From: Deltaproteobacteria bacterium
Lineage (GTDB): Bacteria; Desulfobacterota; Syntrophia; Syntrophales; JACQWR01
Length of the DNA: 40,991 nucleotides
Direction: 5' to 3'
Assembly: GCA_026388415.1 (NCBI GenBank)
Contig: JAPLJV010000059.1
Coordinates: forward strand, 1-40,991
Below the pieces are notes generated by a model. The model did no database searches. It was not told the DNA's origin and saw only the letters and a list, made by a program, of their open reading frames with translations. Shown in pieces: positions 1,728 to 38,348 of the stretch (positions within the stretch are counted from its first letter, which is position 1; each line of letters starts with the position of its first letter). The position numbers and the translations under genes were made by a program.

Positions 1728-1757
1728 ACGTCATGGAGATAAATGAACGGAGATAAT

Positions 1758-4700
1758 ATGTTTAGAATTAAGAGGTTATCCTTTTTTTTGTCGATCTGCT
1801 TTGGAATTATTTTCATACTATCCATAAGTTCAGCTTCTGCTTTTGCCGCGGAAGGGCCGGAAATATTTGTGCAAATGGGGCATTCCGGGATTAACTCTAT
1901 CTCCTTTTCTCCAGATGGCAAGTATATCCTGTCAGGGAGTTCGGACAAGACTGCTAAACTTTGGGATGTTGCAACGGGTAGAGAATTAAGAACGTTCGCA
2001 GGTCATACCGACGGAGTTACCTCCGTGGTTTTTTCTCCAGAGGGGAAATATGCCTTGTCGGCAAGTCGTGACGGGACACTTAAACTCTGGGACGCGAACA
2101 CGGGGCAAGCGATAAGGACATTTAAAGATGAGAGTCGAAACGTTGACTGTGTTTATTCCGTGGCGATATCCCCAGACGGTAAAAATGCCCTTGCCGGACA
2201 CCAGAATGAACTTATCCTTTGGAACACAGCAACGGGGGAAAAGATTAGAAGTGTAAAGGAAGGAGGTGTTCACGCCATCGCATTTTCTGCCGATGGCAGG
2301 TATGCCGCAACAGGCGGCGGCAGTAGCCCGCTCAAACTCTGGGATGTAAAAACCTGGGCACAGATCAGAATATTAATATCTCCCGACCTGATTAATTCTG
2401 TTGCGTTTTCTCCTAACGGCAGGTTCGTTTTGGCCTCATATTGGGAAAGCTCTGGAAACCATCGTCATGTTACACTGTGGGATGTTAAAACCGGAAAGGC
2501 AATATGGACGTTGAATCCCACAAGTTCCGGCGCAGCGGCCTTTTCTCCCGATGGGCGATATGTTTTATCATTTTTTGATAAAAGACAACTCAATCTGATC
2601 GAAACAGAAACAGGTAAAGAGATCGCGGCCTTTTTAGTATCAGGAGATGACTATCATGCTGGGCCAATAGCCTTTTCGCCCGACGGAAGATATGTAATAT
2701 CAGGGATGTCGGGTGGTATTATCAAACTCTGGGATATTGAAACACAAAAAGAAATGAGAGTCTTTAAAGGGTATATGAAAAAGGTTGCCTCTATAGCCGT
2801 GTCTGCTGATGGCAGGCGTGCACTTTCTGTTAGTATTGATGTTTTGGATAAAGACTATTTCGTGGTTTGGGATATAGTGGCAGGAAAAGAGGTGAAAACT
2901 TTTCCCCTGGGGGGGAACAATATTTCGACACACTTCCCTCAGGCAGCAGCTTTTTCCCCGGATGGAAAATATGTGCTCTCTGGAGGGAGAAATCTCAAAC
3001 TTTGGAATGTAGAGACGGGGAAGGAAATTAAGTCTTTTGTAAAAGAAGTAAGTACTATTGGCGCGGTAGCTTTTTCTCCAGAAGGTAAGCAGGCACTATC
3101 TGAAAATGTGGAAGGCATCAAACTATGGGATGTCATAACCGGAAAAGAGATCAGGACATTCAGCGGCAGTAAACATCCTGGATCCGTCGTCTTTTCGCCC
3201 GACGGCCGTTATGCATTGTCGGGAAGCGAATATAATACCACCCTCAAACTATGGGAAGTATCGACAGGAAAGGGAATAAGGACATTCGCCGGGAAGCATT
3301 TTACAAGTATTGACTCCATAGCCGTTAGTCCTGATGGACGCTACGCATTGTCAGGCAGCGGCGATCGTACCATCAAGTTATGGGATATTTCAACAGGAAG
3401 AGAGATAAGACAATTTACCGGACATGCTGACTTTGTTTACGCTGTCGCCTTTTCCCCTGATGGTAAATATGTATCGTCGGGAAGTGCAGACAACACCGTT
3501 AAATTCTGGGACATTTCCACAGGACAAGAGGTATGGGCATCCAGACATTCCTCTTCCGTCGTCTCTATTGCGTTCTCACCTGATGGCAGATATGTCCTCT
3601 CCGGGAGTGAAGACGGCACGACTCGTTTCTGGGACAGTGCCACCGGCAAAGAGATTGCTCAATTCATCAGCTTCACCGACGGAGAATGGGTAGTCATCAC
3701 GCCGAATGGATATTTTAACGCCTCACCTAATGGCGCCAAACATCTCAATGTGCGGGTCGGCAACAACGTCTACGGCATTGATCAGTTTTATGCAAAGTTT
3801 TACCGGCCGGAGCTTGTTCAGTTGGCCCTTGCCGGCAAGGAAATGCCCCAAGGCGAGTTGATTACGGATATTGCCGCCCAAAAACCCGCTCCCAACGTTC
3901 AGATCCTGTCACCCGTCACCAACAGCTCCGTGGACCAGGATAACGTTGCCGTCACCCTGAAAATCACGGACAGCGGCGGCGGGATCGGGATTGTGAATGT
4001 TTATCTTAACGGCGCTCAGGTCGCCAATGATACGCGGGGCGTCATCGTCAAGGGCAAGGCCTCGGCCAACGAAAGGATTCTGTCGTTCACCATACCTCTC
4101 ATCAAAGGACAAAACGAAATCAGGGCTGTCGCTTTCAATGGGGAGAACTCCATGGAGTCGAATCCCGCCCTGATCAGCGTTATTTCCAGGGCCGCTATGC
4201 AGAAACCCAATCTCTATGCCCTGGTTATCGGCATCAATACATACAGGAACCAATCCATCTCGTTGACCTACGCGGTTCCCGATGCCATTGCCTTTGCCGG
4301 GACGTTGCAGAAGGTTGCATCCCCTTTGTTTGAGAAGGCTGACATCCGGACGCTGATTACGCCTGAGGCCACGACTAAAGAGGCCATCACCAAAGCCTTT
4401 GAAGAAGTACGGCAGATGGTCAAGCCCAACGACCTTTTTATATTCTACAATGCTTCCCACGGTATGGTTGACGTGGTGAATGGCGAAGAGCAGTATTTTT
4501 TACTGACGAGTAATGTCCGGCTCCTTTCCTCTCAACATATCAGCAAAGACGCCCTGAGTCACAAAGACCTTGTGAGTCTTATCGGAAGCATCCCGGCGCA
4601 GAAGAAACTCGTGATCCTCGACACCTGCAATGCCGGCAAAGGGGGCAAGGAAATTCAGATAGCTCTCTTGCAGCAGACACGAGGCCTCACCGACGCAACA

Positions 4701-4988
4701 GCGGTCAAGCTCCTGCAGCGGGCTGTCGGCTCATCAGTCTTTTCCGCTTCCGCCGATACGCAACAAGCACTTGAAGGTTATAAAGGACACGGCCTATTCA
4801 CCTATGTGCTCCTGGAAGGATTGCAGGGCAAGGCGGACTTCAAGAAAGACGGTTTCATAACCGTGAAGGGGCTTGCCCTGCATACAGAGGAGCGGGTGAT
4901 GACGCTCTCCGAGGAAGTCTTCAAGCGTCAACAGAACCCGATGATTGAGACGGGCGTAAATGATTTTCCGATCGGGAGGGTAAGGTAA
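1758..4988 (+). CDS. Secreted WD40-repeat protein with C-terminal caspase-like (C14) peptidase
   Basis: From ATG 1758 (GGAG six bases upstream) the product has 1076 residues. An ATG at 1743 would add five. An N-terminal signal peptide has a hydrophobic core and an ASAFA-AEG cleavage site. About fourteen WD40 repeats follow, counted from SPDG...LWD.TG motifs between roughly residues 40 and 640, enough for two seven-bladed propellers. A linker with a possible beta-sandwich leads to the caspase fold, which begins at YALVIGIN near residue 818. The catalytic His lies in NASHG (codon 4458-4460) and the catalytic Cys in DTCNAG (codon 4626-4628), so the enzyme looks active. Bacterial homologues are often called orthocaspases or metacaspase-like. 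The periplasmic location and the propellers suggest a sensor-protease. The substrate is unknown. A lipoprotein gene follows 99 bases later. Confidence 0.88.
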   Translation: MFRIKRLSFFLSICFGIIFILSISSASAFAAEGPEIFVQMGHSGINSISFSPDGKYILSGSSDKTAKLWDVATGRELRTFAGHTDGVTSVVFSPEGKYALSASRDGTLKLWDANTGQAIRTFKDESRNVDCVYSVAISPDGKNALAGHQNELILWNTATGEKIRSVKEGGVHAIAFSADGRYAATGGGSSPLKLWDVKTWAQIRILISPDLINSVAFSPNGRFVLASYWESSGNHRHVTLWDVKTGKAIWTLNPTSSGAAAFSPDGRYVLSFFDKRQLNLIETETGKEIAAFLVSGDDYHAGPIAFSPDGRYVISGMSGGIIKLWDIETQKEMRVFKGYMKKVASIAVSADGRRALSVSIDVLDKDYFVVWDIVAGKEVKTFPLGGNNISTHFPQAAAFSPDGKYVLSGGRNLKLWNVETGKEIKSFVKEVSTIGAVAFSPEGKQALSENVEGIKLWDVITGKEIRTFSGSKHPGSVVFSPDGRYALSGSEYNTTLKLWEVSTGKGIRTFAGKHFTSIDSIAVSPDGRYALSGSGDRTIKLWDISTGREIRQFTGHADFVYAVAFSPDGKYVSSGSADNTVKFWDISTGQEVWASRHSSSVVSIAFSPDGRYVLSGSEDGTTRFWDSATGKEIAQFISFTDGEWVVITPNGYFNASPNGAKHLNVRVGNNVYGIDQFYAKFYRPELVQLALAGKEMPQGELITDIAAQKPAPNVQILSPVTNSSVDQDNVAVTLKITDSGGGIGIVNVYLNGAQVANDTRGVIVKGKASANERILSFTIPLIKGQNEIRAVAFNGENSMESNPALISVISRAAMQKPNLYALVIGINTYRNQSISLTYAVPDAIAFAGTLQKVASPLFEKADIRTLITPEATTKEAITKAFEEVRQMVKPNDLFIFYNASHGMVDVVNGEEQYFLLTSNVRLLSSQHISKDALSHKDLVSLIGSIPAQKKLVILDTCNAGKGGKEIQIALLQQTRGLTDATAVKLLQRAVGSSVFSASADTQQALEGYKGHGLFTYVLLEGLQGKADFKKDGFITVKGLALHTEERVMTLSEEVFKRQQNPMIETGVNDFPIGRVR

Positions 4989-21399: not shown

Positions 21400-22740
21400 T
21401 TATAATTTTCTTAACAATGCTTGAGCGGCATTGTGAATGATATCCCAGGAGCCGCTGAAGGGCGGGGCATAGGCAAGATCAAGGTAGCCAATTTCTTCGA
21501 GGCCCAGACCAGACCACAGGGTGGCAGAAAGGGTGTTGATGCGGCTGACGACACCGGCCTCACCGACCGCCTGGGCGCCGATCAGCCTGGCCGTAGCCCT
21601 GTCGGCAATAAGCTTGAGACCTATCTTTTTCGGATCTGGCAGGGAGTTGGCGATGGCATTTCCCCAGGAGATCACGCTGACAGGATGGAAACCGCTTGCC
21701 CTGGCCTCCTGTTCAGTAAGGCCCGTTGCCGCCGCCGCCAGACTGAAAATCCGGAAAGACTGGGCCCCGACAACACCGGGGAAGAGCATGGGTTTGCCGC
21801 CGATGTTGCTGCCGGCAACGCGGCCTTGCTTGTTGGCGATGTCGCCCAGGGGAATGTTGCCCCACCGCTTGCTGACCCTGTTAAATGACTCGCAGCAGTC
21901 GCCGGCGGCATAGATATTTTCTACGGAGGTTTGTTGGGAGAAATTAACGGCAATAGCGCCGGACTTACCAATGGCCAGACCCATCGCCCGGGCAAGGGTA
22001 GTATCGGGTCTAACGCCGACTGCCAGAAGGATCAGATCGCCCTCCGTGGGGCCATGATTCGTGTTCAAGCGTAACCGGTAGGCAGATCCTTTCTCGATGG
22101 ACCGGATTTCCGTATCCGTAGTGAAGGCGACGTCATGCTTTTTGAGTTCGTCTAAAATAATCAGGCCCAATTCCGGATCCCAGCGGTTGACGGGTAGCTT
22201 GCCCCGGAGGACAATCTCGGTGACAATTCCCTTCGTCACGAAAGCCTCGCAAACTTCCATGCCGATAAAACCGGCCCCGATGATGATCGCCTTCCGGCAG
22301 GGCGTTTCTTTGAGGTAGTCTTTTATCCTCAGGGCATCGCTCAGTCTTTTAAGGAGAAACACCCCTTCCATATCCTCTCCGGGTATGCCCGGCATGATGG
22401 ACGCTGCTCCGGTTCCCAGGGCGAGGAAATCGTAGGGGAGGGAGGCGCCACCGCCAAGACGGATAACCTGAGCAACCGGATCTATCTCTTCGACCCTGGT
22501 ATTGATAAGGACTTCAATTCCTGATTCCCGGAATTTTTCCGGGGTGCGTGCCGTCAGTTTCCGTTCATCCTTGATTACATCACCGATGTAATAGGGCATG
22601 GGTCAGGCGGCGGTTGCTACATGTGGCCCCTGCTCGATCATGGTGATAGAAAGACCGGGGTCGCTTCTTTTTGCCTCGGCAGCTACGGAACCGCCCGCGG
22701 CGCCCGCGCCGACAATGACTAATGTCTTGCTCTTGCTCAT
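21400..22740 (-). CDS. CoA-disulfide reductase-like flavoprotein, probable selenoprotein (in-frame TGA = Sec46)
   Basis: The frame from ATG 22740 (GGGGGAGG upstream) to 21400 is open except for one TGA at 22603-22605, giving 446 residues if read as selenocysteine. Before the TGA: VIVGAGAAGGSVAAE (FAD site) and MIEQGPHVATAA. After it: PMPYYIGD. In CoA-disulfide reductases and NADH oxidases this position reads S-x-x-x-C-x-x-PYY, where Cys is the redox centre, so TGA replaces exactly that codon. An eight-base perfect stem with a GGU loop follows (22574-22592), with its loop 18 bases after the TGA, as expected of a bacterial SECIS. The NAD site IIIGAGFIGMEVCEAF and AAGDCCE near the FAD site are intact. 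It probably reduces disulfides or polysulfide/persulfide with NAD(P)H. Confidence 0.85.
22574..22592 (-). promoter_or_regulatory. Candidate bacterial SECIS hairpin
   Basis: Read on the minus strand: AUUACAUC-GGU-GAUGUAAU, a perfect eight-pair stem with a three-base loop starting with G. Ten bases separate it from the UGA. Bacterial SECIS elements lie inside the coding region just downstream of UGA and have a small G-containing apical loop that SelB binds. Confidence 0.75.
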
Positions 22741-23078
22741 AGATAATCCTCCCCCTTATTTCCCCACTGGGAGCGTAGAAATTCTTCCAGTTCCCGATCA
22801 AAATGCGTAGAAATATGGCCCTCCCTCACGGCGTCCTCTTTTTTTGTCCCGGTGGATATATAGTCGTTTTTAGACGGTTAAGCAACCACTTTATAAAGCC
22901 GATTATTATTTCTTTTGTGAAATTTGACCGACATATCAGGTGATCGGCACTGTTTCATTTCTCGAAAAAATGAGATATAGAAAAACAAGTTTGAGTAATC
23001 CCTAAACGTCTTCTACGTCGCCCGAAGGTATCACAGTAATTAAGGAAAACCTCGACACTTTTCAGAAAGGGGAAAAAG
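22741..23078. other. Divergent intergenic region
   Basis: This 338-base AT-rich stretch separates the selenoprotein gene (leftward) from the polyamine genes (rightward). It should carry both promoters. I see only the two ribosome binding sites and a weak GCCGAT/ATCGGC inverted repeat (22898-22903, 22943-22948), and no gene or known riboswitch. Confidence 0.4.
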
Positions 23079-24263
23079 ATGAAACAGAGGAAAACAGAAT
23101 GCCCCGGCAAATTAAAATATCTTGCCGGTAAAAGGATTCTTCCCGAGCCAATCTCAGGGAAGACGGATATCGTGCAATTGATTGATAACATGGATGCCTA
23201 CAACGGCGGGCGCTTAAGGGCCGCCTGTCAGTTGTTGAGAGACAAATATTCCGCCAATGACGTCACCGTGGGGTTAAGTCTGGCAGGGGCGCTGACCCCG
23301 GCCGGTCTGGGGCCTGCGGCGATTATTCCCCTGATGAACCACGGTTTTGTTGACTGGATGACCGCCACGGGCGCGAATATGTACCACGATCTGCATTTTG
23401 CCTTCAACCTGCCGATGCATCGCGGCACTCATGTTGTCAACGATGTTGATTTGCGGGACAAGGGAGTAACCAGGATTTATGATATTCTGTTTGATTATGA
23501 AGACGTGCTGATGGAAACGGATCGCCGCTTGAGAAAAATCCTGCTGCAGCCGGAGTTTCAGAAAGAAATGGGAACCCGTGAATTTTATTACCACCTGGGA
23601 AAGGTGATGAATGAATACGAAGAGAAAAACAAACTGGGCGAAGTAAGCGTCGTTGCCGCCGCCTATAGAAACGGGATTCCCGTTTTCACCTCCTCTCCCG
23701 GTGATTCCACTATCGGCATGAATGTCGCCGGCCTGGAGCTTTTAGCGGAAACCGCCGGACTGAGAGATAAATTCAGACTGAAAATTAACTCAAGCATGGA
23801 CGTCAATGATTCAACCGCCATCATCTTGAATGCCAAGCGTTATGAACAGGGAAAAACCGGCGTTATCCTGATCGGCGGCGGCAGCCCAAAAAACTTCATG
23901 CTCCAGACGGAACCGCAGATTCAGGAAGTCCTCATGATCCCCGAAGTGGGGCAGGATTATGACATCAATATTACCGATGCCAGACCGGATACGGGCGGAT
24001 TGTCGGGCGCCCCGCCCAGCGAGGCGGCAAGCTGGGGCAAGATAGACCCGACGAAGCTGGAAGAAGCCGTCACCGCCTATCTCGACGTTACGGTAGCCTT
24101 GCCGCTGATGGTCGCCTATGTCACGCATACTACCAAGCCCAAAAAACAAAAAAGGCTTTATCACCGGGGGGAAGAGTTGCATGCAAAGCTGGTTAAATCT
24201 TATCTGGAAAATAACAAAGAAGTGGAATCTTTGAAAAAACTTATGAAAAAGCTCCCGGTATAA
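23079..24263 (+). CDS. Deoxyhypusine synthase-like protein (probable homospermidine-forming)
   Basis: A 394-residue homologue of deoxyhypusine synthase. The NAD-binding and active-site motifs are visible: GLSLAGALTPAGLG near residue 67, ILIGGGSPKNF near 266, and EAASWGKIDP near 313, where Lys matches the catalytic lysine that carries the aminobutyl group. Bacteria lack eIF5A, so bacterial members are thought to transfer the aminobutyl group to a small amine, giving homospermidine or a relative. ATG 23079 has AAAGGGG upstream. The ornithine decarboxylase gene starts ten bases after its stop, so the pair should make putrescine and then a longer polyamine. The product has to be measured. Confidence 0.85.
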   Translation: MKQRKTECPGKLKYLAGKRILPEPISGKTDIVQLIDNMDAYNGGRLRAACQLLRDKYSANDVTVGLSLAGALTPAGLGPAAIIPLMNHGFVDWMTATGANMYHDLHFAFNLPMHRGTHVVNDVDLRDKGVTRIYDILFDYEDVLMETDRRLRKILLQPEFQKEMGTREFYYHLGKVMNEYEEKNKLGEVSVVAAAYRNGIPVFTSSPGDSTIGMNVAGLELLAETAGLRDKFRLKINSSMDVNDSTAIILNAKRYEQGKTGVILIGGGSPKNFMLQTEPQIQEVLMIPEVGQDYDINITDARPDTGGLSGAPPSEAASWGKIDPTKLEEAVTAYLDVTVALPLMVAYVTHTTKPKKQKRLYHRGEELHAKLVKSYLENNKEVESLKKLMKKLPV

Positions 24264-24272
24264 AGGTGGAAA

Positions 24273-25418
24273 ATGGCCATGAAAAAGCAATTTATCAAAC
24301 TTATCGAGCAGTACGGGACACCCTTATTTATCCTGGATCACAAAAAGCTCAGGGATAATTACCGGACCTTCAAAACAAATCTGCCCAGGATTCAATGCTA
24401 TTATGCAGTCAAGGCCAATTCCCATTCCGAGATCATCAAGACCCTGTTCCTGGAAGGGTCGAGCTTTGACGTCGCTTCCTACAACGAATTCATGCAGATT
24501 TACGAATACATTAAGCATTTCGAAGAAAAAGATAAGGACTTCTTCATCTGGGACAAGATTATTTTTTCCAATACCATCAAGGACAAAGAGACACTCAGCA
24601 AGATAAAACGATACCGCCCCCTGGTCACTTTCGACAACCGCGAGGAGTTGAAAAAAATAAAGGATTACTGCGACACGGCCGGTTTAATTCTCCGGCTGAA
24701 GGTGCCAGATTCGGGCTCACAGGTCGAGATGAGTTCGAAATTCGGCGCCGAGCCAGGAGATGCCGACCTTCTGATCCGCCAGGCAAACGATGCGGGGCTT
24801 GTGGTGGAAGGGCTGAGCTTTCATGTGGGCAGCCAGTGCACCAATTTTGACAATTACACGGCAGCGCTCGCCATTACATCGGCAATACTCAAGGATGCCC
24901 GGCAAAGGGGCTACCACCTGAAAATCATAGACATCGGCGGCGGATTTCCCGTGCCCTATGATGCGCAGATGCCTGAATTCGAAAAGCTGGCGAATGTCAT
25001 TAATGCCGAATGTCAACGACTTTTCCCGTCAGATATCGAGATTATAGCGGAACCGGGGAGATTCATCGCCGCGACGGCAGCAACGCTGATCACCGAAATC
25101 GTCGGCAAGTCCAGGCGAGACGGCAAGATGTTTTATTACATCAATGACGGCGTTTATCATACCTTTTCGGGCGTTATTTATGATCATTGGCTCCCCAATT
25201 TCACTTCTTTCCGGCAGGGGGAAAAAGAGGTTTGTGCGGTGGTCGGACCGACCTGCGACAGTTTTGACAAGATATCCCTGTCCGTTCAGTTGCCGGAAAA
25301 TCTGGCCGTCGGGGATTATCTGCTGACGAAAAATATCGGCGCCTACAGCATTGCTTCTTCAACAAAATTTAACGGTTTCGACGGCGCCAAAATTATCCAT
25401 ATCAATCTCAGACGTTGA
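24273..25418 (+). CDS. Ornithine/lysine decarboxylase, alanine-racemase fold (group IV)
   Basis: A 381-residue PLP enzyme. The PLP lysine is in CYYAVKANS near residue 47. The phosphate-binding GGGFPVPYD is near residue 223, EPGRFIAA near 264, and the active-site Cys in VGPTCDSFD near 329. The length and the GPTCDS motif fit eukaryote-type ornithine decarboxylase and its bacterial relatives rather than diaminopimelate decarboxylase. It should convert ornithine (or lysine) to putrescine (or cadaverine). It is coupled to the deoxyhypusine-synthase-like gene upstream. ATG 24273 or 24279 are both possible starts. It converges on the serA-like gene with a 59-base gap. Confidence 0.87.
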   Translation: MAMKKQFIKLIEQYGTPLFILDHKKLRDNYRTFKTNLPRIQCYYAVKANSHSEIIKTLFLEGSSFDVASYNEFMQIYEYIKHFEEKDKDFFIWDKIIFSNTIKDKETLSKIKRYRPLVTFDNREELKKIKDYCDTAGLILRLKVPDSGSQVEMSSKFGAEPGDADLLIRQANDAGLVVEGLSFHVGSQCTNFDNYTAALAITSAILKDARQRGYHLKIIDIGGGFPVPYDAQMPEFEKLANVINAECQRLFPSDIEIIAEPGRFIAATAATLITEIVGKSRRDGKMFYYINDGVYHTFSGVIYDHWLPNFTSFRQGEKEVCAVVGPTCDSFDKISLSVQLPENLAVGDYLLTKNIGAYSIASSTKFNGFDGAKIIHINLRR

Positions 25419-32419: not shown

Positions 32420-35400
32420 ATGATCAAACGCAATCCCCTCAGAGCGGCTTTCCTGCTTGGATTGATTCTCCCCCTAATGTCAGGTTGCGCCACAAAAATG
32501 TCTCTGGAGGAAGCAAAAAAGGTTACCATCTCCATGGCGGAATCGCCGGCCTTTATTCCCCCCCCCCCGCAGAATTAACGATATTCTCTCCGTTCTGGAC
32601 CAGCCCGGTCAGTTCGAATCTCAGATTACAGCGAAATTCAAGAAACAGGCTGACGCCAAACCACCCGATACGGAAGATCCGAGGACTCTCAAAACATTTT
32701 ACAGGGACCGCGGGGGGGCCGCCTTTGAATTGAACCGCTTCGGGCAGGCCAGGGATGATCTACAGAAGGCATTAGCTTATAATATTAAGGATGATTCCGA
32801 TGGATTCATCAAATGCCGTCTCGGCATTATAGAACACAGTTATGGTAATTTTCAAAAAGCGATTGCATTATATAAAGATAGTTCAACATATCCAGTAGTC
32901 ATTATCCCATTATATGAGACTCCTTCCAGCCCTGTGAGAGCTTATTTTCAACTGGTCTTTCTCTACGCCACGATTGGCGATCTGGAGTCTGCTAAAAGCG
33001 CCAGGCAGAGCGGTGTTGAATTCATTAACAAAAGTAGACAGGGGCCGACAGGAGGATTCTTGCATGAGATGCAGCTGCATTTGATGGATGTCTTCATTTT
33101 GGAGGCACAGGGAAACTACGCGGAAGCTGATGCAGAATATCGAAAGATCAAGAACCTCGGGACGGGGCCGGGCCGGGTGCTCCTGGAAAAATATCCGACG
33201 TCTTTTATCTCTGTGGATATGTTCCATGCACGGAATTTATTGAATCAGCAACGCCTGCTGGAGGCGGAGGTAGAAGCCAGAAATGTCCTGAAAGCCTCTC
33301 TGGCGCATACCGGCAAGGAATCAGCGCTTACGGGACAGGCACTGATATTGCTTACCCGCATATTGCTGGTGCAGGGTCGCATGGAAGAAGCGGAACGGCT
33401 AGCTGATGCCTCCATTCGTATTCTTGAAGCTGCGCGTACCCCTGCTGATTCCCCCTTCGTGACCCTTGCCAGGATCACAAAGGGTGATATCCTGGCGTCA
33501 ATGGAGAATTACGTCGGCGCCATGTCACAATACGATCTGGCCCAGGTCGGTATGAAAGAAAATCCGTTTTTCTCTGAAAGATCCTTTACACAGGATCCCT
33601 TGATGGTTTTATCCATGCTCATGACCGGCCGTTATGACGACGCGAAGAAACAGGCTTCACAAAACTACGAGAAACTCAGGTTACGCTTTGGTGAAAGGAA
33701 CGATAAAACAGCGGAGATGCTGGCGCTCAGGGGCATGACTGAGGAACACTTGAACCATTATCGCGAAGCCGTCAGGGACCTTTCCACCGCAACAGAAGTA
33801 CTTATGGAACACCGAACGGAAGAAGGTGAATTTGCCAGTCACAAAAAACTGCGGAGAATAATCATTGATGACTATGTCTCTTTACTGGCGAAGATTCAGG
33901 GCACTCCCCTTGAAAAGGAGCTGGGGATCGATGCAGTGGCCACATCGTTCAATCTGGCAGAAGCAAATAGAAGCAGGAGCGTCCAGGGAGCTCTCGTAGC
34001 AAGCAGTGCCCGTGCCGCAGTGACAGATCCGGAACTGGCTGACCTGGCCCGTAAGGAACAGGATGCAGACAGACAGATCGTCATCTTGGAAAGCGCGATT
34101 CTGAATCTTCTAGCGGCGCCGGCCGGTCAGCAGGACCCGAATGCCGTTCGGAATCTACAAATTAATATCGAAAAGCTGCGCGATGCCCGGAATACCATTC
34201 TGGGTGAAACCAAGCGCCGCTTCCCCAGATATGCTGATTTTGTAAATCCATCGGCACGATCCATTTCTTCTATCCGGACGATAATGCGTCCGGGGGAAGT
34301 GCTGCTGTCCCTTTATACCACTAAAGATCAGACCTTTATCTGGGCCATTCCTCATGGAAAAAATGCACAATTTGTTTCCGTCGGCATGGGTAGAAACAAT
34401 CTCATCCCCGTTGTGGCAAAGCTGAGAAAATCACTTGATTCGGAACCGGGAACGCTGGGAGATATTCCCGATTTTGATATCTCTCTGGCCTATGACCTTT
34501 ATTTGAAATTATTTTCTCCTGTTGAATCGGCATTGAAGGATGCCACCGACCTTTTTATTGTCACAAATAATCCCCTGGATCAGATCCCCCTGGCTATTCT
34601 TCCGACGGCGCCATTTCACCTTGATCGTGAACGTGAGGAGCTTTTTGCCCTTTACCGGCAGGTTCCATGGTTGATACGCAGGGTTTCCATTACCATGGAG
34701 CCTTCTGTGTCAGCCCTTTTCAATCTGCGGACGATGCAGGCCGCTGATCCCGGTCGTAAGGCCTTTCTGGGATTCGGTGATCCCCTCTTTAATCGGGAAC
34801 AGCTGGCGTTTGTGAAAGCAGAGCAGAACAGGTTAGAAGAACATACCACAAGAAAAATAGCTGCTATCGACAAAATAAATGCAAGTAGTGTCCAAGTTAG
34901 GGGTATCCGCATTACTGCGAAGGGAACTCTCGATAATCAGAAGGTCGCATCCATTCAGACCGAGAATCTGGACCGTCTGCCCGACACGGCAGAAGAAATT
35001 AAAACCATTGCGCAGGTATTGAACGCAGACCTGACAAAAGACGTCTTTTTACAGGAGCAGGCTTCCAAGCACCGGGTTAAAACAATGCCCCTGTCGGACC
35101 GGAAGGTCATTGCATTTGCCACCCATGCCCTGGTTCCCGGGGATCTGGACGGCTTGGATCAGCCTGCTCTTGCCCTGTCCTCATCTTCCGTCACAGGAGA
35201 CCAGGAGGATGGCTTGTTGACGATGAAAGATATTATGAAGTTGAAGCTGAATGCCGATTGGATCGTTCTTTCAGCGTGTAATACGGGAGCTGCGGGTGGC
35301 GCCGGAGCGGAAAGTCTGTCGGGACTTGGTCAGGCCTTTTTCTATGCCGGTAGCCGGGCGATCCTGGCCAGTATGTATCCTGTTGAAACGACGTCGGCCC

Positions 35401-35597
35401 GGAAACTGGTCACCGGCCTATTCAGGTTTCAAGTTGATGATGCTAAGCTGACCAGATCACAGGCGCTGAGGAGATCTATGCTGGATCTGATCGACAGGGA
35501 GACGCTGAAGGATCAAGCCACGGGCAAGATCATCGCCAGTTACGCCCATCCCCTTTTCTGGGCACCTTTTGTACTGATGGGCGATCCTGGCCCATAA
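32420..35597 (+). CDS. Lipoprotein with TPR repeats and C-terminal CHAT peptidase; frame broken at a C11 tract
   Basis: The N-terminus (from ATG 32420) is a lipoprotein signal peptide ending in LMSGCATKM. This frame stops at 32576-32578, just after a run of eleven C. The next frame is open from within the run (RRINDILSVLDQPG...) through to 35597. With ten C the product would be a 1058-residue lipoprotein. The middle holds helical TPR-like repeats (RFGQARDDLQKAL, YAEADAEYRKI). The C-terminal CHAT domain has the catalytic His in FATHALVPG (codon 35124-35126) and Cys in LSACNTG (codon 35277-35279). It is a caspase-superfamily protease, probably membrane-anchored in the periplasm. As sequenced only truncated pieces could be made. 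This is either phase variation, a fixed frameshift or a sequencing error. Confidence 0.8.
32558..32568 (+). repeat. Homopolymer of eleven C in a coding region
   Basis: The run begins after FI in the lipoprotein frame and is followed by GC. Eleven C leads to a stop two codons later. Ten or thirteen C would join the signal-peptide frame to the TPR-CHAT frame. Such tracts are classic slipped-strand phase-variation sites. Confidence 0.8.
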
Positions 35598-37505: not shown

Positions 37506-38348
37506 TTATGGAAATACAAGAATATCTGGAGAAACATTCCACTCTGTTGCAAAATAACGCTCTAATTGTTTCGTAGATTTTTCATCAGATGTAATTACAG
37601 CTTTCAGATCCTTTTCTTCAAAGTTCAAATAATCTTCATTGCTTTGAGAAGATATTCGCCATTCATTTTCTTTACAGAATTCATAACCTATTGGATATCG
37701 TTCATACACATCAGCAATTCTTACACCATTATTATTTACAGCAAGCTTCCTGCTTTCTGAAAAACTATTAAAGAGCGTATGAGGTTTTCTATAAGCTAAA
37801 ATCTGTTCTTCCAGCTCTTTTTTGCGAAGAATCTCTATAGGCGACAGATTGGATTTATATGCAAAATAATGGTTCCATTGCAGAACTATGGGGTCATAGA
37901 AAAGAGATTCTTCCTTATAGTAATAAACTTTTCTTATTTTGTTTTTACTCAAGTATTCATTGTCAAAGACCAGTCCGAGTTTGCCATATTGCTCTTTGTG
38001 CGGGTGCATAGGCAGTTGCTCAAAAGAAACATCGAAAAGCATAACATCCTGACATCCATATCCAAATAATAGATGTCATATTTCGGGCTTATCGGTATAT
38101 TTTTTTCTCAATTCTGCCAATCCATCATTCTCTGAAAGAAAACCCTCCAGCGGCAGATTCAGTACAGTTGTATCTATAAATCTTGAGTCGTTAAAGATTT
38201 TTGCGTGAATGTGGGGCTGAAACACGGGTATAAACTCAGGGTTTGCCTTTAATAACAATCTTTTTTTTTGCAGAACGTCATCTATTACTGAGTTAGTTTG
38301 GATCTGAATGTCATTTTTATACGCACCAAATGCAAAATGAATATACAT
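37506..38348 (-). pseudogene. AbiGi-like abortive-infection protein, broken by an in-frame TGA
   Basis: Two frames on the same register are separated by one TGA at 38076-38078: 90 codons from ATG 38348 (GAGG upstream) and, after 11 further sense codons, 178 codons from ATG 38042. The second part has VMLFDVSFEQLPMHPHKEQY-GKLGLVF and, near the end, YEFCKENEWRIS and LNFEEKDLKAVI. These resemble the ICFCDIPL..H..KYG-x-x-GIGF and E-x-EWR segments of AbiGi-type putative antitoxins. Normal members continue upstream of the VMLFD point, so the two parts are probably one gene with a nonsense mutation. A short active form from 38042 (AGGA upstream) cannot be excluded. The DNA is more AT-rich than the operons to the left. 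Confidence 0.55.

Follow-up and report, generated by a model that had tools for sequence, protein, structure and literature searches.

A putative selenocysteine codon at the catalytic position of a CoA-disulfide-reductase-like flavoenzyme gene in Syntrophales

Results and discussion

An interrupted reading frame and its surroundings

The window, i.e., the whole stretch of 40,991 nt analysed here, carries on its minus strand a gene at positions 21400–22740 (ATG at 22740, stop at 21400), whose otherwise open frame is interrupted by a single TGA at 22603–22605 (minus strand, codon 46). A Shine-Dalgarno-like GGGGGAGG (22748–22755, minus strand) lies 7 nt 5′ of the ATG. If the TGA is read as selenocysteine (Sec, U), the product comprises 446 aa with Sec46 at the catalytic chalcogen position and represents a full-length FAD/NAD(P)H disulfide oxidoreductase of the CoA disulfide reductase (CoADR)/NADH-oxidase type, according to its Pfam domains (Pyr_redox_2, Pyr_redox, Pyr_redox_dim) and the matches of its AF2 model in the PDB. 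The 45 codons 5′ of the TGA (22606–22740, minus strand) encode the FAD-binding VIVGAGAAG segment. A mechanical ORF call begins at 22599 (MPYYIGD...) and drops both this segment and the TGA codon. An earlier sequence-only reading had proposed a selenoprotein here; all its coordinates for the gene and the TGA hold on the minus strand, and so does its prediction that a gene caller would start at MPYYIGD and lose the FAD-binding segment.

Several other features of the window were recorded. The divergent pair at 23079–25418 (plus strand), in which a gene of the homospermidine-biosynthesis/deoxyhypusine-synthase family adjoins one for a diaminopimelate/ornithine-type decarboxylase, likely belongs to a polyamine pathway. 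A 1081-aa protein consisting largely of WD40 beta-propeller repeats is encoded at 1743–4988 (plus strand), and a TPR plus CHAT-domain protein at 32730–35597 (plus strand). A second TGA-split ORF (37506–38348, minus strand, 280 aa), with one TGA at codon 91 (KPEI-U-HLLFGYGC), was considered as another selenoprotein and not supported: Pfam gave no hit for it, the other searched genomes of the order contained no relative, and since its TGA lies inside the ORF's own predicted hairpin, a broken orphan gene is the more likely reading.

The TGA occupies the catalytic cysteine column

Homologues drawn from whole genomes and the GTDB contig collection were aligned on the catalytic-Cys column. The first set of 109 loci, some of which were one gene fetched twice, had 79 TGA, 19 TGT and 11 TGC codons in this column. 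After addition of phylum-wide homologues and removal of duplicates, 181 distinct sequences remained, with 122 TGA, 36 TGC and 23 TGT; no other codon occurred in the column in this final set. The proposed placement of the TGA at the active-site Cys is borne out by this comparison of TGA forms with 59 Cys forms, and the hallmark of a selenoprotein gene, an in-frame TGA aligned with a conserved redox Cys, is present. The suggested motif S-x-x-x-C-x-x-PYY was correct for the catalytic position and wrong for its first residue, as the window protein has Ala42 where Ser is the family norm. In L062, a record under the title S. aciditrophicus, the Cys form occurs.

A nonsense mutation that broke the gene at codon 46 would also place a stop codon in frame. 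Such a pseudogene would, however, have to explain a TGA at the identical column in 122 distinct sequences from many genomes, with no second stop. In those TGA homologues for which stops were listed, the TGA of the catalytic column was the sole in-frame stop, and none of the 122 Sec homologues has another stop within 40 codons 5′ of it. The occurrence of TGA on the catalytic column as the only in-frame stop in 122 distinct sequences is far beyond chance. Moreover, differences between the upstream 40 codons of the window gene and those of 29 relatives are concentrated at third codon positions (295/237/700 for positions one, two and three), from which we conclude that the codons 5′ of the TGA are still translated. 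The probability of a pseudogene is therefore vanishingly small.

The same segment bears on the idea of two ORFs, with translation restarting at ATG 22599 and the short MPYYIGD... form as the real protein. This ATG sits one codon past the neighbour of the TGA and is what automatic callers pick, but it is poorly kept: only 63 of the 122 Sec homologues possess it, the others having ACN, ATH, CTN, GAG etc. at this place, which is a strong argument against a conserved restart. As the upstream 45 codons also include the FAD-binding motif and show a coding pattern of evolution, we consider a restart highly improbable and prefer continuous decoding through the TGA.

A SECIS-like stem-loop follows the TGA

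The RNA 3′ of the UGA folds as AUUACAUC-GGU-GAUGUAAU, corresponding to a putative bacterial SECIS (bSECIS) upper stem-loop at 22574–22592 (minus strand; arms 22592–22585 and 22581–22574, loop 22584–22582). Its eight pairs, its GGU loop and its start 10 nt 3′ of the TGA are exactly as described in the sequence-only reading. Published bSECIS rules ask for a loop of 3–9 nt, a stem of 4–16 bp, a G in the first two loop positions, a spacing of 16–37 nt and an MFE of −7.5 or lower (PMC13188914). With a 3-nt loop, 8 bp, the G, a UGA-to-loop spacing of 18 nt and −9.1 kcal/mol, the window stem-loop lies within all of them. A search of Rfam at this stem-loop returned no SECIS-type family even with a permissive E-value, the hits being chance matches.

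Compared with shuffled sequences, the energy of the stem gave a z-score of −1.45, which is weak taken alone; we therefore relied on comparative evidence. Within the clade sharing at least 50% identity, all eight pairs are intact in 71 of 72 Sec homologues vs 2 of 28 Cys homologues. The local folding energy in this clade is −8.15 kcal/mol for Sec and −3.49 kcal/mol for Cys genes (Mann-Whitney p ~4e-12, a value that is only indicative as the rows are related). At codon 55, all Sec genes but one (71 of 72) have GTA, whereas Cys genes show a wide mixture of codons and also differ in the amino acid encoded. Among 94 distinct sequences with type-A SECIS, 99.5% of the pair cells are standard, and compensation was seen at three pairs in which both sides had changed, in one case in 12 sequences.

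Most TGA homologues at 35–39% identity have a second geometry with a 4-nt loop (arms at +17..+24 and +29..+36), whose stem begins 4 nt further downstream than the window type; it is 98% paired and shows compensatory changes. Two loci (L203, L205) have folds unlike either geometry.

These patterns also speak to the possibility that a true TGC or TGT is masked by a sequencing or assembly error, for which the fragmented state of the assembly (66 contigs) could be cited. The nearest independent relative (L032/L218, 86% identity) likewise has TGA, and the SECIS tracks TGA vs Cys among the relatives, so that we assign an error a negligible probability.

Selenium machinery in the host and its order

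The earlier reading had named selA, selB, selC and selD as the genes to look for, and all of them were found in the host genome (G000, 66 contigs): SelA at 597 bits, SelB, a tRNA-Sec with anticodon TCA, and SelD. The SelD gene itself contains one in-frame TGA (context GAGUACK). Following this TGA, the locus (L121) has a stem whose loop is rich in G, and on both grounds SelD is probably a selenoprotein, too. Taken with the codon column and the stem-loop, we regard decoding of the in-frame TGA of the Syntrophales gene as selenocysteine as almost certain.

SelB was surveyed in 155 genomes of the class, all from one order, using the SelB wing domain as the marker, which was not detected in 14 of them. 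Only two of these 14 genomes, G026 and G086, reach a completeness of 90% or more with no more than 5% contamination, and both have the Cys form only. Three others (G046, G055, G126) carry the TGA form with SelB undetected; as these are MAGs of 68–87% completeness, the gene was likely missed. Sec and Cys copies exist side by side in four genomes.

Enzyme identity and possible substrate

The FAD, NAD and dimerisation domains together with the whole-length fold place the protein in the CoADR/NOX/NPX-type superfamily. Its AF2 model (mean pLDDT 92.8) matches CoA disulfide and persulfide reductases in the PDB over the whole length, with TM 0.92–0.94, and a single catalytic Cys/Sec stands in the (S)xxxC/UxxPYY motif as in CoADRs. 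The active site of S. aureus CoADR uses a Tyr pair from the partner subunit, Tyr361 and Tyr419. Judging from the alignment, we take the YYPG Tyr of known CoADRs to be Tyr361; the window clade has Ser366/Leu367 at this position, so the Tyr pair is incomplete, and Tyr424 (419-like, by alignment) is invariant in the clade. The score against TIGR03385, the CoA-disulfide reductase equivalog, was 372.3 bits and hence below the cut-off of 578.8. The earlier label "CoA-disulfide-reductase-like" holds for family and fold, and the function that it suggests is putative. Because of this low score and the replaced Tyr, we infer a mechanism that is CoADR-like only. The protein ends after the dimerisation domain and lacks the C-terminal rhodanese domain of the NADH-dependent persulfide reductase (Npsr).

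Enzymes of this family use a catalytic Cys facing the FAD to reduce CoA disulfide, persulfides or polysulfides (PMC7969121). For the window protein a sulfur-type substrate appears fairly probable, with a low-molecular-weight persulfide, polysulfide or CoA-type disulfide as our leading guess for the natural one. It might instead be a selenoprotein that reduces O2 or peroxide as an NADH oxidase or peroxidase, without sulfur chemistry. The fold matches NADH oxidases and NADH peroxidase as well, and "NADH oxidase" is the label of the Sec form in earlier surveys. Yet CoA disulfide/persulfide reductases are the top matches in both structure and sequence, and with water-forming NADH oxidases and NADH peroxidase the protein shares less identity (23–26%). 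Furthermore, the known Syntrophales are strict anaerobes. We therefore consider an oxidase or peroxidase function unlikely, though far from negligible, and favor sulfur chemistry.

Under the almost certain decoding as Sec, SelB with Sec-tRNA would bind the stem-loop just 3′ of the UGA, and insertion of Sec at residue 46 would yield the full-length 446-aa flavoenzyme of homodimeric type. Going by fold and family, the selenolate of residue 46 would attack the disulfide, persulfide or polysulfide substrate, NAD(P)H would reduce FAD, and FAD in turn the mixed chalcogenide at residue 46. Replacing Cys by Sec may offer higher nucleophilicity at neutral pH and easier re-reduction in an anaerobe.

Gene neighbourhood and evolution of selenocysteine in the family

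The order trxB–lgt–Sec/Cys CoADR-like gene was found in 44 of 60 Syntrophales-type loci (e.g., L058 1047–4326); in the single locus with scanned neighbours, trxB and lgt scored above the curated cut-offs. A gene for a TerC/Alx-type membrane protein sometimes follows 3′ of this set. The window copy is without the trxB–lgt neighbourhood and is followed by genes for a Phenol_MetA_deg protein and an MFS transporter. Four loci (L081, L087, L089, L093) have a different gene 5′ of the Sec gene; the small, Cys-containing product of this upstream gene (NYNCAECV...CGALAGAV) resembles the C-GCAxxG-C-C family.

A quick maximum-likelihood tree, calculated with the catalytic residue masked, needs at least 17 Sec/Cys changes, 13 of them forced by well-supported branches. 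With rooting on a Cys outgroup and near-equal costs, parsimony favours several Sec gains (3–6) together with 11–14 losses in the family, while one gain and 19 losses fit if a gain costs at least three times as much as a loss. The clade of the window protein, which has the motif UPxP, is separate from the UGxP proteins, widespread in Syntrophales and characterized by its own SECIS geometry. A more far-reaching proposal is that Sec arose in this clade, with its own SECIS, separately from the UGxP proteins of Geobacter, and that the clade constitutes a distinct enzyme, which, after loss of the second catalytic Tyr, acts on a substrate other than CoA disulfide and is mostly encoded behind trxB and lgt in Syntrophales loci. 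We put this forward tentatively, at somewhat short of an even chance.

Standard gene callers cut the FAD-binding segment and the catalytic residue from TGA-bearing copies, and this mis-calling affects most Syntrophales genomes in the sample examined. At the same time, natural Sec/Cys pairs are numerous in the clade, among them the four genomes with two forms and the two near-complete, SelB-less genomes with Cys only. These pairs constitute a test bed for why anaerobes retain Sec in a sulfur-redox enzyme and for the gain and loss of SECIS elements.

Comparison with known systems

A Sec-containing "NADH oxidase" of Geobacter metallireducens was listed in 2006 and found once in GOS data; reviews from 2022 and 2026 list a "FAD-dependent oxidoreductase (CoA-disulfide reductase)" with the motif UGxP (example WP_011365774.1), and the 2006 survey described the selenoproteome of Syntrophus aciditrophicus without a CoADR-like Sec protein (PMC1794560, PMC9312934, PMC13188914). 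Like the G. metallireducens protein, the window protein belongs to the TIGR03385/COG0446 family and has Sec in place of the catalytic Cys; unlike it, the window clade has UPxP instead of UGxP. The UGxP homologues found here, at 35–39% identity to the window protein, mostly have the SECIS geometry with the 4-nt loop, and from its motif alone we infer that the Geobacter protein falls into this group.

Structurally, the window protein shares its whole-length fold (TM 0.92–0.94, 36–39% identity) with the CoA persulfide/polysulfide reductase of Pyrococcus horikoshii (4fx9, 5l1n) and the NADH-dependent CoA disulfide reductase 6ruz, all of which use Cys at the catalytic position and possess the YYPG Tyr that is absent from the window clade. 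With Npsr of Archaeoglobus and Shewanella it has the core fold and the catalytic chalcogen position in common, whereas Npsr additionally carries a C-terminal rhodanese domain (PMC7969121). Our search of the open-access literature yielded no description of this UPxP clade or of how widely it occurs in Syntrophales. Sec in a CoADR-type family has been known since 2006, and the UPxP clade is an added member of this family.
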